A stretch of 64,000 nucleotides of DNA, taken from the NCBI RefSeq assembly GCF_000203815.1, contig NW_004457729.1, forward strand, positions 3,472,674 to 3,536,673, written 5' to 3'. The position numbers were made by a program, and so were the translations under genes. Source of the stretch: Cavenderia fasciculata (lineage: Eukaryota; Evosea; Eumycetozoa; Acytosteliales; Cavenderiaceae). Position 1 is the stretch's first letter. The number at the start of each line of letters is the position of its first letter. Of the stretch, positions 36,915 to 46,431 are shown in pieces. Below the pieces are notes generated by a model. The model searched no databases. It saw nothing but the letters and a program-made list of their open reading frames with translations, and was not told where the DNA came from.

Positions 36915-39900
36915 TGGCTCTACTATTACATCGTCATCGTCATACCCACCAATCATCTTTTAGATTTGTATTTTTATTCACAATCATCATAGCTATAAGT
37001 ACTATTTTACAATGTAATTTAGTATCGGCTACAATATCAACCACAGAGAGTATGTATTAATTGTGAGAGATATAATACAATGACTTTTTTAAAATTGACA
37101 TTTTCGATTAACCATCCTTTAATTCATTTCAATTTTACTATTACAGTTGAATCTTTGAATTGGTTGAAAGCACTATACCAAACATCATGGAATGTACCAA
37201 CCATATGTTCCAATGGAATAGGAATTAAATGTACTCCTGATGGAAATATTTTGTCAATGTAAATACATAGAGAGAGCGATTCGTAATTTTCGAATAAGAG
37301 AATCTTTTTGTTTAACCTTTACTTTACAAATACTACTACAACTACATAGATTATTAGATGCAGCCGCTTACAGTTCGACAACTTCTGGAATATCAACTAC
37401 TACTCAATCGACTGGATCATCGGGAACACCAGCCTCTACAGTAGGATCAACTGGAGCATCGACATCACAGGCAACCTTATCAACTGGTGCCACTGATGGA
37501 TCTACCGATGGATCAACTGGAGCCTCTACATCACAGGCAACCATGTCAACTGGAACGACTGACGGATCTACCGATGCATCTACAATAGGATCAACAGGAG
37601 CATCAACATCACAAGCAACCATGTCAACTGGATCAACTGACGGATCTACTGATGGATCAACAGGAGTCTCGACATCACAAGGAACCACGACATCTGGAAC
37701 AATAGGATCTACTGCAGCATCCTCCACTGCAGGATCAACAGGAGCATCAACATCACAAGCAACCCAGTCAAGTGGTACAGCAGCTGGATCTACTGGAACA
37801 TCAAGTGGATCGTCAACATCGCAGGCTACTGCAGATTCAACCACTACAGGACCTCAAACAACTACCAAAGTAACAAGTGAATCGATTGATGTATTAGACC
37901 CAATCCCACTCCCAAGTGTTTACGAAGCTTTTAATGTATACAGTCAACCAAGTACTCCAGTCAACCTCCCAGTACTCACCTTTGGTACACTCGATTTCCC
38001 ATTCCTCACAAATTTGACCATCCTCGGAACAATCACTCCAGCAGTCACTGATGTTAATATTCTACAGTACATTTCATCACTCAATGCACTCGTATATGTT
38101 CGTATCAATAATCAACCATATGTTGCCGATTTCTCTAGTTTCCCTTCAAGTGGTCAAACTCTACTCAAATACCTGTATGTATAATATAATAGATAAAAAT
38201 ATATATATATATATATATATCTATCATGTCACTAACCTTGATTTGATTTTTAAAAGTGATTTAACTAATTGTAGTATGGTAGATGCTGGTATTCCTTTAT
38301 CTATTTGGTCAAGTACAATGCTAGAGACAATTAAATTATCAGGAAATAGATTAGGATTGTCATCAACTGCAACATCCAATTCCATTCGTTTCGCTGAAAT
38401 TGACTTTTCATCTGGTGGAGGTACCTTTAATATTGGAGGATTAATGTCAACTTTAACAGTTGGTGATTTTGGTTTCTACGTACATATTAATAACATTATA
38501 CTTGATAGAATTCAAAGCTTGTAAGTAAATCAATATTAATTATTATTTAATATTAGATATTAAGTAAATTAATAATATTAATCATTCTCTTTTTCAAACT
38601 ATACAGAACTTTTAGATCATTACTTGTTGGTACTAGAATTGAACTTGGATTCCAAATTAATGTTCCTACCAGTTTATTCTATTTTTCAGCATATAATTGT
38701 AAACTTGTAACACCACTTCCATCAACTGTAACAGCTTTACAATCAGTGTAAGTAGTAGTTGTTAGGTTAAAATAATAATACATTTCCATTAACACTCTTA
38801 TTATTTTCTTTTCAGTGAATTATACGACGTAACCTATGATAATCCAGCCACACTCTATTTAACAACTATTCCATTTTCTCTTATTCATTACTCTGAAAAG
38901 AATGGAGTTGCCCAAGCATTACCATCAACTGTTAATAATGTTGCTACATTGTAAGTACAATTGATAGTATCATGTTTTGTTTGTTTGGCTATTCTATTCA
39001 TTTAACTAATATATATATTCCCTCACATAGTAATGTAAATTCAAATCCAAATTTCAGTCCATCATTTACATATCCGTTATGTACAGTTAGAACAATTGAT
39101 GCAAGATCAACTGGTTTGACAGCTGCAGCTATTGACAATTGTTTTGTATGCTATTCTAATCAATTTGACATGAGACCATGGTTTGACTTTGACATTACCT
39201 TTAATCCAAGTCTTTGTGCATCCTATTTGACACTTAGTGCCACACAGTTTATGGTTGGTCGCGACGGTGGAGTGATCACACTAGAAGGAACGGGTATGGG
39301 TTGGGGTGTCGGATCAGGCGTGTACCCCGATTTGACATGTGTTGTGCCAAACAAAAAGTTCCTCCTTGCCGTACCAGCCTACGCAGGTGTCCAAACACTC
39401 ACACTTAACTTGGGATTCTCAGCGACCATGAAAAAGGCAATTACCATTACCTATGGTGTCCCCAAGATCAGCTCAGTCGAGTTTATCCAGGGAGCTGGGT
39501 TATTGACCGTTGTTTTAAACGGAACCTTTTTCGAAAACCCAGCATTTACTGTGGGTGGAGTATCGTGCTCTATCACAGTCTATGGAGTCAATACTGGTGT
39601 GCCAACATCGTACCAATGCACACTGCCACAGGATTTCAAGGAGGGGTATACATTGATTGTTGCTAGTGGCAATGTCTATGGAAATGACAGTCGTATATTC
39701 TACTATTTGCGTTCATATCCTTTAGTTACATCGACCAGCGAAGTACCGTCCAACGGAGGTATACTCACGTTGTACGGACGATTCATTGTGGGTGCTGGCA
39801 AGGTCGTCAAAGATCTACCCATCTCACACGACCTCCCAACCACGACCCCAATTACCATCAACCCTGCGTCATCGACCCTTGCTCAGCTCGGCGTCCAAAG

Positions 39901-41098
39901 TGTCTCGTCTAATCTAGGTATCCCAACCGTTACAGTCGGCGGAAACCCATGTACCAACGTAATGTATGATGCTACGCAACTCAACTGCACACTCGACAAG
40001 GATACCCGTGGACCCAAGGAGATTGTGGTCACCATCGACACTTACACGTTCCGTTCCAAGGGACTGTTCTTTTTGGGCATGTTTGACGCTCCCACATGTC
40101 CAAGCGCCTGTCCCGCACACTCGACTTGCGACACTACCAAGGGCACATGTGTATGCGACACTGGGTACGCCGGCCCGACCTGTGCAGTCGAGGTCAAGCC
40201 CGACGCACCCAACGCAACCATCGAAGCGTCTCCGGTCAAGCCAGACACGTCGATCAGCACGCCAAGCGGGTCGCTGCTCGACATTCAAATCGTCGGTATT
40301 GCCGAGATTGACCTCGATGGCGCTGTCGTCGTTGAAATCCCTCTCTCTGGCGAATGGGACAACCGCACCACCACAACATCCTCGGCCAACACGACCCACT
40401 CGTACTTGGCAACCAACATCTATGGCAACGCAACCGTCCAAGCGCAGTTGATCGCATTCCACGCATCCTCGTCGGTCGAGTTTGCCGGCAAGACCGACAC
40501 CTATGAGTCGGGCTCGCTCAAGGTGCAGCTCGGCATCTACGACTGGCCATTTGTTGCATCAACCAACACTCTCCGCGTCATTATCCATTCGGCAACCGGT
40601 CTGACCGACGCAGCTGCAGAGTCGCGTTGCACAGACGCAGTCCAATCGTCTGATGTAGGTGTCGACGAGTTTGACTCTGTCAACTACCTCGTCATGACAA
40701 TTGACACGATTGCCTATTACGGTCGTTTCATTGATCGATCACTCTCTGACGGTAGACCCGCCTACTCACCCGTATCTGTCCTCAACAAGACCGACGGTGC
40801 TGCATTCCTCTCTATCAGTCTTCCACATTGCGTAGTTGCCTGTGTTCTCGATCCCGACTTTTCCATCCTCTTGACCAACAAGGACGAGGACGATGGATGT
40901 TCAGACAGCAACTCTCGAGCATGGGTCATCCCTGTTGCCGTCGTCGTTCCATGTGTAGTCGTAGCTGCTGGAGTAGCCACCTTTTTTGCTGTCAAGCGTC
41001 GTTTCTATGTTAGTCGATCAGGTCTCTCTGTCAAGATCATTTCAAGAGGTAAATCACAACGTTCCATTTCAATGAAGGTTCCCTATAGTAGTCCATAA
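36914..41098 (+). CDS. LRR/TIG/EGF/ComC-type membrane adhesion protein
   Basis: Seven exons in phase (36914-37049, 37147-37258, 37350-38174, 38257-38520, 38607-38747, 38816-38950, 39031-41098) give 1226 aa. A signal sequence (about residues 17-40, FRFVFLFTIIIAISTIL) is followed by an LRR-cap-like segment (WLKALYQTSWNVPTICSNG). Next comes a Ser/Thr/Gly mucin-like repeat region (about residues 95-250). Leucine-rich repeats are spread over exons 3-7, with introns in the same phase at repeat ends. IPT/TIG-like beta sandwiches follow (GGVITLEGTGMGWG, GGILTLYGRFI). Then come one EGF module (CPSACPAHSTCDTTKGTCVC) and a ComC-type sandwich domain. Near the C-terminus is one membrane helix (WVIPVAVVVPCVVVAAGVA) and a basic tail. 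This is a surface protein of the dictyostelid ComC/Tgr-like class, probably in cell-cell signalling or adhesion. Confidence 0.87.
37390..37850 (+). repeat. Mucin-like Ser/Thr/Gly coding repeat
   Basis: Imperfect tandem units built on STGASTSQAT and TDGSTDGS, about 60-100 bp per larger unit and roughly five copies, inside exon 3 of the ComC-type gene. They would form a heavily O-glycosylated stalk. Confidence 0.85.
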
Positions 41099-41775: not shown

Positions 41776-44700
41776 ATGAATGAGCAGATTGGATCAATGA
41801 AACCAATACATTCAAAGAGACAAAGTATACAGATACACAACACACCACATTACGGGGAAGAAGAAGAACCATTGGAAAATGTTGATGATCAAGAACAAAC
41901 TAAGAAAGAGTTTGGTATGTCAATCAATACAATCAATTGAATAGTATATATTCAATATTGATACTTACTTTGTTGTTTGTCTTTTCTTCTTCTCTTTTCT
42001 CTTTTACTTTTCTTAGATGCTGCGATTCATTCTGATTTACCACCATACAAGATGGCACAAATAGAGATTAGAGAGATGCAAAACTTTAAGAGTTGTCAGG
42101 GAAGATATTGTGAGATTCGTAATATGATTCTAGCAAGTTGGCACGATAACATCAACCAATACTTGACCAAGGACGAGGCAACCAAGATGATTGGCGCACA
42201 AAACAAAAAAGAGGCTCATTCTGTCTTTGACTTTTTGGAGCGATGGGGATACATCAATGTGGGTGTGTTTCAGAGACCATCGGGGGATCCCGAATTCTTC
42301 TCAGAGAACGCGTCAATTGGCAAGCGGGATATACGTCGCTCGAAAAAGGTGCTGGTGGTGGGCGGTGGTGTGGCGGGTGTCGCTGCAGCACGCCAGCTCA
42401 AGTTCTTTGGATACGACGTGCGCATTCTCGAGGCACGCCAGCGTATTGGCGGTAGAGTGTGTACTGACAACCAGACGTTTGGCGCATCGATCGATCTCGG
42501 CGGCAGTGTCATCACAGGTCTCGAGGGCAACCCCCTCACAGTACTGTGCAAGCAGTTGCAGCTCAATTTGCATGTGCTCAAGGGCGAGTGTCCCCTCTAC
42601 GACGTTGACGGCAACGAAATCAGCGAGCGTGCCGACGAGCGTATCACCAAACTCTTTAACACCATGCTCGACAATGTCGCCAAGCAGGCCAAAGACGACT
42701 CGATATCACTTCAAGAAGCGTGCGACAATGAACTCAAAAAGGGTCGGTCTCTCACCAAAGAAGAGGCACGTATTCTCAACTGGCACTTTGCAAACCTCGA
42801 GTATGGATGTGCCGGTGAGCTCAAAGACATTTGCATGGTTGGATGGGACCAAGACGATTCCTATGACTATCGTGGCGAACATTGTATGATAAAAGAAGGG
42901 TATGGCGCAATTGCTGAAGGTCTTGCCAAGGACATTACAATCACCACAAACTGTAATGTCGTCTCTATCGAATATGACGTTGATAAAAACAATCAAGTCA
43001 AAGTCATCTCTTCCGATGGTAGTATTTATTTTGGTGATTGTTGTATTGTAACTATTCCATTAGGTGTTTTAAAACAAAAGTAAATATTAAAAACAAACAA
43101 GAAAACAAATAATAATAGATAGAGTACTAATATATAAAAACTCTCTCTATTTTAGTAATATTCAATTTACACCAGAACTTCCATCATGGAAAACAAAGAT
43201 TATAGAAAGATTGGGATTTGGTACATTAAACAAGATTGTACTTCGCTTTAGTAGAGTATTTTGGGGAAACACTGATTATTTTGGATTTTTAAACAATGAC
43301 AAGGAATCTAGAGGGGAAGCATTTATGTTTTGGAATCTTCATCGTGTCACTGGTGAACCAATCCTAGTTGCCTTGGCATCTGGTGCTTCATCAAAAGATG
43401 TTGAAGGTATGCAATACAAATGACAAATTTATAAAACGATTAGATGATTGTTCTTTTTAATATTCATTTTGATTGATCTTTTATATATAGAAACACCGGA
43501 ACAAATAACAGTTAATAATGTAATGAAGAAATTAAGATCTAGATATGGAAAAGAAACATTGGATCCATTGGCATATAAAATTACTAAATGGAGTCAAGAA
43601 GAGTATAGTCGTGGAACCTACTCGTTTATAGCAAAGACATCGAGTGGAAATGACTATGACTTGATGGGTGACAATATTGGCAATCTATACTTTGCAGGTG
43701 AAGCTACCTGTCGAGAACACCCTTCTACCGTCGTTGGAGCACTTCTGAGCGGACTCAGAGAAGCCGGCAAGATTGACAAGGATTTCTGCTACCAAGTTGA
43801 CAAGACCGAGGTCGTAGAAGTCAAGCCAGACGACCAAAAAGAACGAAAGAAATGCTTTTCCAAAAACTATCATGGACACAACCCCAAAAAGGTTCGTGGC
43901 AAGGTGCAACCAATGATCAACAAGCGATCACATCACGGCGACGCTGAAAACTCCTGGTTATTTAACAGTGGATTCATAATCCCCAAAAAACCAGGAGCTG
44001 TCGGACGAAAACCAAAAGCAAGCAAAACAATTACAACCACTACTACCACGACTACTATATTTGAGGGTGATGATGATTCTGATTATAAACCATCAAATCC
44101 AAGTAGTGGTAATGGATCATCTATGAATCAAGCAAATAATAATAATAATAATAATAACAATAACAATAATAACAACAACTCTTCTATCAACCCTATTGGA
44201 CCACAACCACAGCATCAACAACATCAACAACATCAACAACCATATGGAAATAATAATATGCAACCACAACCACACCAGAACATGCCAATGGGTGGTCCTC
44301 CTGGCGCAATGCCAATGCATCACAATCAACAACAACCTATGAATCGATTACCCCAACATGGACCTCCATCGGATTATGATCGGAGATCATATCAAAACAA
44401 TCAACCACACTATCATCCATATGAAAGAGATAGGGTACCTCTTCCTCATCCTTCCCATCCTCCTCAACAACCTCATTATGCACAACATCCACAACATCAA
44501 CAACCTCCTCCTCCTCCATATCCAACATCTCCCTATGGTAATCCACCACCCCATCCATATCAACAACCACCACCACCACCACCACAACAACAACCGCAAC
44601 AACAATACCGACCACCTTATCCATACCAATATCCTCAACAACCATCACCCCCATACCATCAACAACCAATCCCTCAAGCACCCCCTCCTCCTCCTCTCCA

Positions 44701-45433
44701 ACCACCCTATATGCATATGTCACCTGTTAAACAAGAACCACCTCCACCAGGACCATACACACCACAACCAAACCAATACACTCCTCCTCCTATTCCTGGT
44801 CCTGCTCCTCTTGCTCCTCAACCAATACCATATAATACTGCATCGCCACCCTATCAACAACAACCTCCACCAAATTATATGCATCTACCACCAGTTGTTA
44901 AATTAGAGTCTGGTACCCAACCACCACCTGGATACCCAATTGCACCTCATCCACAACAACCATATAACCATCCACCACCACCACCACAACAACAACCTCA
45001 ACAACCACCACTTTCCTCTTCATATGGACAAATTCCAACTGTAAAACAAGAACCAATATCTTCATCATACTCTACCAATCTCAACAGTAGTGGAAACTAT
45101 AGTCTCAATTCTTCATCTGGAAGTGTTGGAGGAAAACCTGTAAATAATAATAATAACGAAACCGGAGTCTCGCAAGAAGAGCTTGCCAGATTAATCACCA
45201 AAGAAGAAAAGGAAATACTCAGTATACTTGTAAGAGAAGTCCTTAAAAAGTATCCATCTATTAATCGAGAGGAATTTAAAAACATTGCCAGAAAACTCAC
45301 TCATTGCTACTATGACAAACTCAAAAGTAAAAGTAAAGAAACCATCAAACAAAGTCCAGAATTGAAAAGATATATCCAAGATGATGTTGATAAATATGTT
45401 ACTGGCTTTTTAAATCGTAATAAAAAAACATAA
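41776..45433 (+). CDS. LSD1/KDM1-like histone demethylase with C-terminal SRI-like domain
   Basis: Four exons in phase (41776-41914, 42017-43079, 43156-43406, 43491-45433) give 1131 aa. A SWIRM-like domain covers about residues 50-130 (REMQNFKSCQGRYCEIRNMI...FDFLERWGYIN). It is followed by an FAD amine oxidase domain with the Rossmann motif VLVVGGGVAGVAAARQL near residue 158 and EARQRIGGRV. The closest match is LSD1: WHFANLEYGCAG, WDQDDSYDY, and PELPSWKTKIIERLGFGTLN, which includes the flavin-contacting Lys. NLYFAGEATCREHPSTVVGA completes the FAD site. The LSD1 tower helices appear to be missing, as in LSD2. A 450-residue Pro/Gln-rich linker leads to EEFKNIARKLTHCYYDKLK, which matches the SRI domain of SETD2/Set2. 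It probably demethylates H3K4me1/2 in the nucleus. Confidence 0.9.
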
Positions 45434-45595: not shown

Positions 45596-46431
45596 TTAAT
45601 TTAATCTAATATAGGTATCTTTTCTTTTCTTTACAATGAATAAAAAGATAACAGCAAAAATGACATCGGTGGCACACATGATTGGAATTAAATAGGTGTA
45701 ACTATAATTGGTGACATGATAAACATTTTCGGGAGTGTATCCTGCAAGCATCCATGCAGCACATACTCCCATTGGTGCGATGATGGCCCAAATCACCTTG
45801 AGTGTGTCTTTGAGAATAACCTTTTTCGAAGGACTGTTTCTGTTGAATGTGATACGATGACGTTTACGGATATGTTCCTTGTGTAGGAACAAATCAAGTG
45901 TCAATAGAATGGGAGGAATGTAATGAATCCATACATTGAGCAACCATGCAAATGCCACCGAGTGGTTCTCCATCTCGGCACGCTGTGATATGAAATCGGG
46001 ATTGAGAATGACCAATAGAATGGTGGCCGTAATCATCACTATATAAGATCCAACAAAACTGACAGCATGTAAAAGTTGAATAAATATATTATTCTTGTTT
46101 GTAGTTACATCCAATTCAAACCATAACGTATGTATTAACCAAAACCAAAATGTTAAATTTGTTATTAAAAATGGAAACCTAAGAAAGAAGAAGAAGAAGA
46201 AATAAGTAAACATATATTAATATATGTATGTTTGACAAAGATATAGATATAGATATGTCTATCTTTTACTTACATAACGGTAGCAGTTACAAAATAAGCT
46301 AAATGTATATAAAATAATATTCTTCTTCCCCAATGTCTATATTTCTCTCTCTGTAACTCTGATCGTATCGGTAAATCAGAATAGTATAGACTTCCTCCTT
46401 CTAAATACGCTGAATCTGCCAGTGATGCCAT
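45596..46431 (-). CDS. Multi-pass membrane protein, possibly FAR-17a/AIG1-like
   Basis: Two exons (46274-46431 and 45596-46178) give 246 aa. About six hydrophobic segments alternate with short charged loops: ILFYIHLAYFVTATVMF, NLTFWFWLIHTLWF, LLHAVSFVGSYIVMITATIL, WLLNVWIHYIPPILLTLDLF, VIWAIIAPMGVCAAWML and CATDVIFAVIFLFIV. The size, the six spans and a conserved-looking His in LNVWIHYIPPILL recall AIG1/ADTRP lipid hydrolases, but I do not see enough to be sure. There is no cleavable signal peptide. The C-terminus KKRKDTYIRLN is basic and probably cytosolic. Confidence 0.78.

Follow-up and report, generated by a model that had tools for sequence, protein, structure and literature searches.

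A predicted KDM1/LSD1-family demethylase with an SRI-like C-terminal domain in the dictyostelid Cavenderia fasciculata

In Arabidopsis, the KDM1 enzyme LDL3 removes H3K4me2 and binds RNA polymerase II with a phosphorylated tail, and an LDL3 mutant from which the SRI domain was deleted did not, unlike the full-length protein, interact with the phosphorylated polymerase (PMC10690457). In the same report, LDL2 and FLD are described as having no SRI and no comparable polymerase II binding, an SRI is reported for land-plant LDL3 orthologues (rice, poplar, Selaginella, Physcomitrella), mammalian LSD1 proteins are described as being without one, and Rebehmed 2014 is cited as the source for the SRI in plant LSD1 homologues (PMC10690457). 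A phylogeny of KDM1 proteins distinguishes two groups in plants and two in animals, without mention of Dictyostelium (PMC2579438). Here we describe a gene of Cavenderia fasciculata (assembly GCF_000203815.1, contig NW_004457729.1, positions 3,472,674 to 3,536,673) whose predicted product combines an LSD1-type core with an SRI-like C-terminus; this whole 64,000-nucleotide stretch is called the window, and positions are numbered within it. The preliminary description of the locus had held this architecture to be unknown in plants, a claim that LDL3 and its land-plant orthologues contradict (PMC10690457). In plants the combination of KDM1 and SRI has been described and tested before; what is new is an instance outside plants, in a dictyostelid. 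LDL3 itself we take to be AtKDM1D, of plant KDM1 group II. We consider it likely that the gene in the window encodes a KDM1-family demethylase dependent on flavin adenine dinucleotide (FAD) that works like LDL3, with its SRI-like tail on elongating polymerase II.

The gene (41776..45433, plus strand) comprises four exons, 41776-41914, 42017-43079, 43156-43406 and 43491-45433, in a splice model predicted by hand from the sequence alone, and encodes a 1131-residue protein in which SWIRM and amine oxidase domains are followed by a linker and the SRI-like domain. The start ATG at 41776 and the stop at 45431-45433 confirm the coordinates first given for the gene. Translation runs without inner stops, and all three introns are GT..AG with 18-25% GC; those at 43080-43155 and 43407-43490 break the coding stretch of the amine oxidase domain. 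Pfam places the SWIRM domain at residues 56-127 (42043..42258, plus strand; PF04433, 63 bits, E 3.1e-17) and the amine oxidase domain at residues 165-579 (42370..43774, plus strand; PF01593, 258.6 bits), which is the domain order of KDM1/LSD1. Among solved structures, this core was closest to human LSD1, at 337 bits, with human LSD2 next at 270 bits. The FAD-binding motif GGGVAG lies at residue 162, K427 aligns with the GNLNK lysine of human LSD1, and both the GTLNK stretch of the active site and the acidic WDQDD are conserved. We assume that the LSD1 lysine opposite K427 is K661, with an active-site role, and the roles of GTLNK and WDQDD are assumed likewise. Judged by its domains and motifs, the predicted protein is a SWIRM and amine oxidase member of the KDM1/LSD1 family, as had been proposed.

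The tail of the protein probably forms an SRI-like domain that clips the enzyme onto working RNA polymerase II. This candidate domain spans residues about 1055-1129 (45200..45424, plus strand), with the Pfam stretch at 1064-1125. Aligned with SETD2 in the register suggested earlier, the tail was identical at 18 of 49 positions (pairwise E 3e-5), and the resemblance seen in the preliminary description thus stands. When a model was built from SETD2 as the only sequence, the real score was reached by 2 of 20,000 class-preserving shuffles and by 2 of 20,000 full shuffles; a model of two sequences, SETD2 and the only other SRI found in the genome (described below), gave 1/20,000 for each kind. A profile made of the tail and this other SRI, without SETD2, retrieved the SETD2 SRI structure 2a7o at 1.1e-6 and a full-length SETD2 chain at 3.3e-4, and the next unrelated match stood at 0.66. 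The other SRI alone, used as query, found 2a7o at 0.0034. In a script version of the profile test the real tail scored 28.8 bits and was equalled by none of 400 shuffled tails (best 28.1). Adding the tail to the profile of SETD2 and the other SRI improved the match to RECQL5 from 0.14 to 0.0027 and worsened that to yeast Set2 from 0.24 to 2.

The surface through which SETD2 binds the carboxy-terminal domain (CTD) of the polymerase includes V2483, F2505, K2506, R2510 and H2514; polymerase II binding is reported as abolished by F2505A, K2506A and H2514A, and as kept, in the assay used, by V2483A and R2510H (PMC8294582, PMC9167812). Four of these five residues are identical in the tail. Within the stretch EEFKNIARKLTH, residues F1080, K1081, R1085 and H1089 (45275..45304, plus strand) align with F2505, K2506, R2510 and H2514, and an arginine stands opposite V2483. 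The spaced F/K/R/H pattern arose by chance in 82 of 200,000 class shuffles.

Several results count against an SRI in the tail. The Pfam SRI family (PF08236) scored 23.3 bits for the roughly 90-residue tail alone and only 16.3 bits with the whole protein as query (cut-off 23.5), one of ten class-preserving shuffles hit an unrelated family at E 9.9e-5, phmmer with the tail alone listed 2a7o fourth (E 0.3) behind other PDB chains, a whole-genome SRI search did not detect the tail even at E <= 10, and the structural match of the tail to SRI was tied with unrelated bundles. The profile search that had been proposed for the tail did find an SRI match, at a score below the curated cut-off, and for this reason we use the name SRI-like. 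One of the ten control shuffles also matched SRI itself (12.6 bits). Given such shuffle hits, an E-value of this order from Pfam cannot settle the matter on its own for a helical sequence rich in lysine and glutamate; because this composition attracts matches to random families, the SRI hypothesis was tested on its own by the shuffles described above. When the tail alone was compared, profile against profile, with SETD2 and the other SRI, the probability was 37%. Predicted models of the tail showed three main helices plus short extra helices. For both models, a Foldseek search against the PDB returned nothing at E <= 0.001, and 2a7o was not among the best 50 matches listed; the structural support for an SRI fold is only suggestive. 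These scores and structural ties would suit a tail that is an unrelated helical bundle, rich in lysine and glutamate and SRI-like by chance or convergence, on an otherwise ordinary LSD1 homologue. Such an origin would leave unexplained the outcome of the shuffle tests aimed at SRI, the four identical contact residues, the profile that reaches the SETD2 SRI transitively and the C-terminal placement shared with LDL3 (PMC10690457), and we regard it as rather improbable. On the sequence comparisons as a whole, the SRI call is real but weak.

The ligand may also be questioned. The SETD2 SRI binds the alpha-tubulin C-terminus as well; tubulin and polymerase II both need K2506 and H2514, tubulin needs R2510, and F2505 is described as required for polymerase II and not for tubulin (PMC8294582). 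A true SRI-type fold whose main ligand is this or another acidic or phosphorylated peptide would agree with the basic charge of the tail (21 K+R vs 12 D+E) and with the equivalents of K2506, H2514 and R2510, all of which are kept. However, the polymerase-specific F2505 is kept too (PMC8294582), LDL3 is an enzyme of the same type and binds phosphorylated polymerase II through its SRI (PMC10690457), and the genome contains heptad-repeat matches, so that we hold a ligand of this kind to be unlikely. Far less credible is a tail that is part of a different gene, or whose link to the demethylase exists in the sequence only, through the assembly, a missed intron or a separate transcript. The hand-made splice model leaves room for it, as do in-frame ATGs in exon 4, donor-like hexamers at 45041 and 45140, and a 60-base stretch at 44116, encoding poly-Asn repeats, where GC drops to 15%. 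Yet a single open frame (43448-45433) covers the last FAD motif, the linker and the tail, and the whole linker has 43% GC, unlike the introns and flanks (18-27%). A separate transcript for the tail was rejected on this open frame. Since exon 4 contains the last FAD motif together with the linker and the tail, the reverse transcription PCR across 43406/43491 suggested in the preliminary description would be no test of the fusion.

The whole-genome SRI search returned one match only, on contig C14, and the same single match at the loose limit. It is a clear SRI (frame 375-1163 of locus L011; 41.8 bits for the stretch alone), but two residues of the SETD2 contact set, R and H, are missing from it. 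By eye, its gene (L011 375-2776, minus strand) encodes a protein rich in K, E, D and R. A Set2 gene as the owner of this SRI was considered and rejected: none of the 34 SET matches fell within the surrounding 10 kb, where the frames look K/E-rich. Recent copying of the C14 SRI as the origin of the tail was likewise rejected; a search of the organism's own genome with the tail alone retrieved the tail itself and one weak match (E 1.52) and did not retrieve the C14 SRI. Viral contigs scanned with the tail gave 30 pattern matches, none of them confirmed.

One AWS domain was found in the genome, on contig C21, adjoining a SET domain (L022, minus strand, region of C21:1086162). With frames joined by hand, this SET domain scored 189.3 bits against SETD2 and 188.3 bits against an H3K36/H4K20 methyltransferase entry, presumably NSD1, and from values this close the Set2 and NSD classes are indistinguishable for this gene. 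Its 354-residue frame opens with the SET domain and continues for 245 residues beyond it without an SRI match, whereas SETD2 and yeast Set2 carry an SRI. No SRI was found after the SET domain by a Pfam scan of the 354-residue frame or by the genome-wide search, which had also missed the tail in the window; the gene may still carry an SRI that is weak or lies in a short 3' exon. The proposal that the demethylase acts without a separate Set2 needs qualifying, as a SET domain about equally near SETD2 and that methyltransferase entry is present, with no SRI found after it. Five SWIRM domains and sixteen amine oxidase stretches were counted in the genome, and the two occur together only in the gene described here, a statement that rests on no other SWIRM match adjoining an amine oxidase match. 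Of the four other SWIRM loci one was read: its protein (L023, minus strand, 1693-residue frame, region of C14:2296355) shows by eye stretches resembling ZZ and SANT, as well as long acidic repeats, and is perhaps SWI3/SMARCC-like. The heptad-repeat family of polymerase II gave 14 matches in the genome, 11 of them in tandem on C17, and a match to Cdc73, of Paf1C, lies on C7; because of these matches, the ligand of plant LDL3 and some of its pathway seem to be present.

LDL3 was compared through its published description, in which an LSD1-type core and a C-terminal SRI are combined as in the window protein; LDL3 is longer, the SRI-deletion construct having ended at residue 1,538, and belongs to a set of four Arabidopsis LSD1 homologues (PMC10690457), whereas a single SWIRM and amine oxidase gene was found here. 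Human LSD1 (KDM1A), the best solved relative, shares both core domains, and the SRI-like tail is one difference from it, as mammalian LSD1 proteins are described as lacking an SRI. In the alignment to the LSD1 chain, 20 query residues (201 to 222) stand opposite 127 residues of LSD1 (270 to 398) between aligned blocks. The 127-residue stretch we take to be the Tower, the part of LSD1 on which CoREST docks. No Tower-sized insertion was thus found in the amine oxidase domain of the window protein, which sets it apart from KDM1A, and LSD1-style docking of CoREST is therefore not expected. With human LSD2 (KDM1B), the SWIRM and amine oxidase domains align continuously, with no Tower gap. None of the 18 Pfam matches of the window protein at E <= 5 was to a CW-type zinc finger, as in LSD2, and LSD2, as a mammalian LSD1 protein, is described as having no SRI. 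LSD2 is reported to bind the elongating machinery (as cited in PMC10690457). The SRIs of SETD2/Set2, RECQL5 and SCAF1 are described as helical domains that bind the CTD phosphorylated at Ser2 and Ser5, and SETD2 and the tail have contact residues in common. In those proteins the SRI forms part of a methyltransferase, of a helicase and of an SR-related factor, the last of which we take to be SCAF1; here it would sit on a demethylase. Judged by titles and the openings of abstracts, literature searches returned no description of a dictyostelid LSD1 with an SRI.

Between core and tail lies a low-complexity linker rich in Pro, Gln and Asn (residues 621-1034; 43898..45139, plus strand). Its Pro/Gln composition (25% Pro, 14% Gln) is as first described, and its length is 414 residues by the bounds chosen here rather than the approximately 450 given before. 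Three psi-K-x-E motifs, VKQE, VKLE and VKQE, were noticed in it at residues 897, 954 and 1002 (44726-45052), spaced by 57 and 48 residues; psi-K-x-E is the SUMO consensus. The upstream neighbour (38939-41098, plus strand), one long frame, resembles by eye a membrane protein that carries repeats of EGF-like and beta type and a single transmembrane helix at its C-terminus. The downstream neighbour frame (45596-46216, minus strand) is convergent with the demethylase gene and resembles, by eye, a multi-pass membrane protein.

Overall, the interpretation in the preliminary description is partly supported, and what the comparisons support is a predicted demethylase of LSD1 type whose SRI-like C-terminus has kept most of the contact residues. 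The open gene structure, the domain order, the contact residues and the heptad-repeat and Cdc73 matches were observed directly, and the activity, substrate, CTD binding and expression of the protein are inferred. The SWIRM and amine oxidase core would demethylate mono- and dimethylated lysine, with H3K4 the most likely substrate, and the flexible Pro/Gln linker would give the enzyme reach to nucleosomes. The C-terminal SRI-like helical domain would hold elongating RNA polymerase II by its tail phosphorylated at Ser2 and Ser5, so that methyl marks would be removed within transcribed gene bodies.

More tentatively, it is possible that a polymerase-tethered demethylase is no plant speciality. The fusion might predate the split of plants and Amoebozoa, with loss in animals and fungi, or might have arisen twice; with an SRI on the demethylase and none found on the AWS-SET gene, the polymerase tail might recruit an eraser where in animals and yeast it recruits a writer. 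Muramoto 2010 is work reportedly done in Dictyostelium. It is cited for H3K4 methylation as transcriptional memory (PMC10690457). If the tail binds polymerase, co-transcriptional H3 demethylation, shown in a land plant (PMC10690457), would reach a second, distant lineage, one with simple genetics. This would take the plant mechanism to Amoebozoa and pose the question of an ancient fusion or two origins. As only one SWIRM and amine oxidase gene was found, deletion of the tail in such an organism would be free of paralogues.
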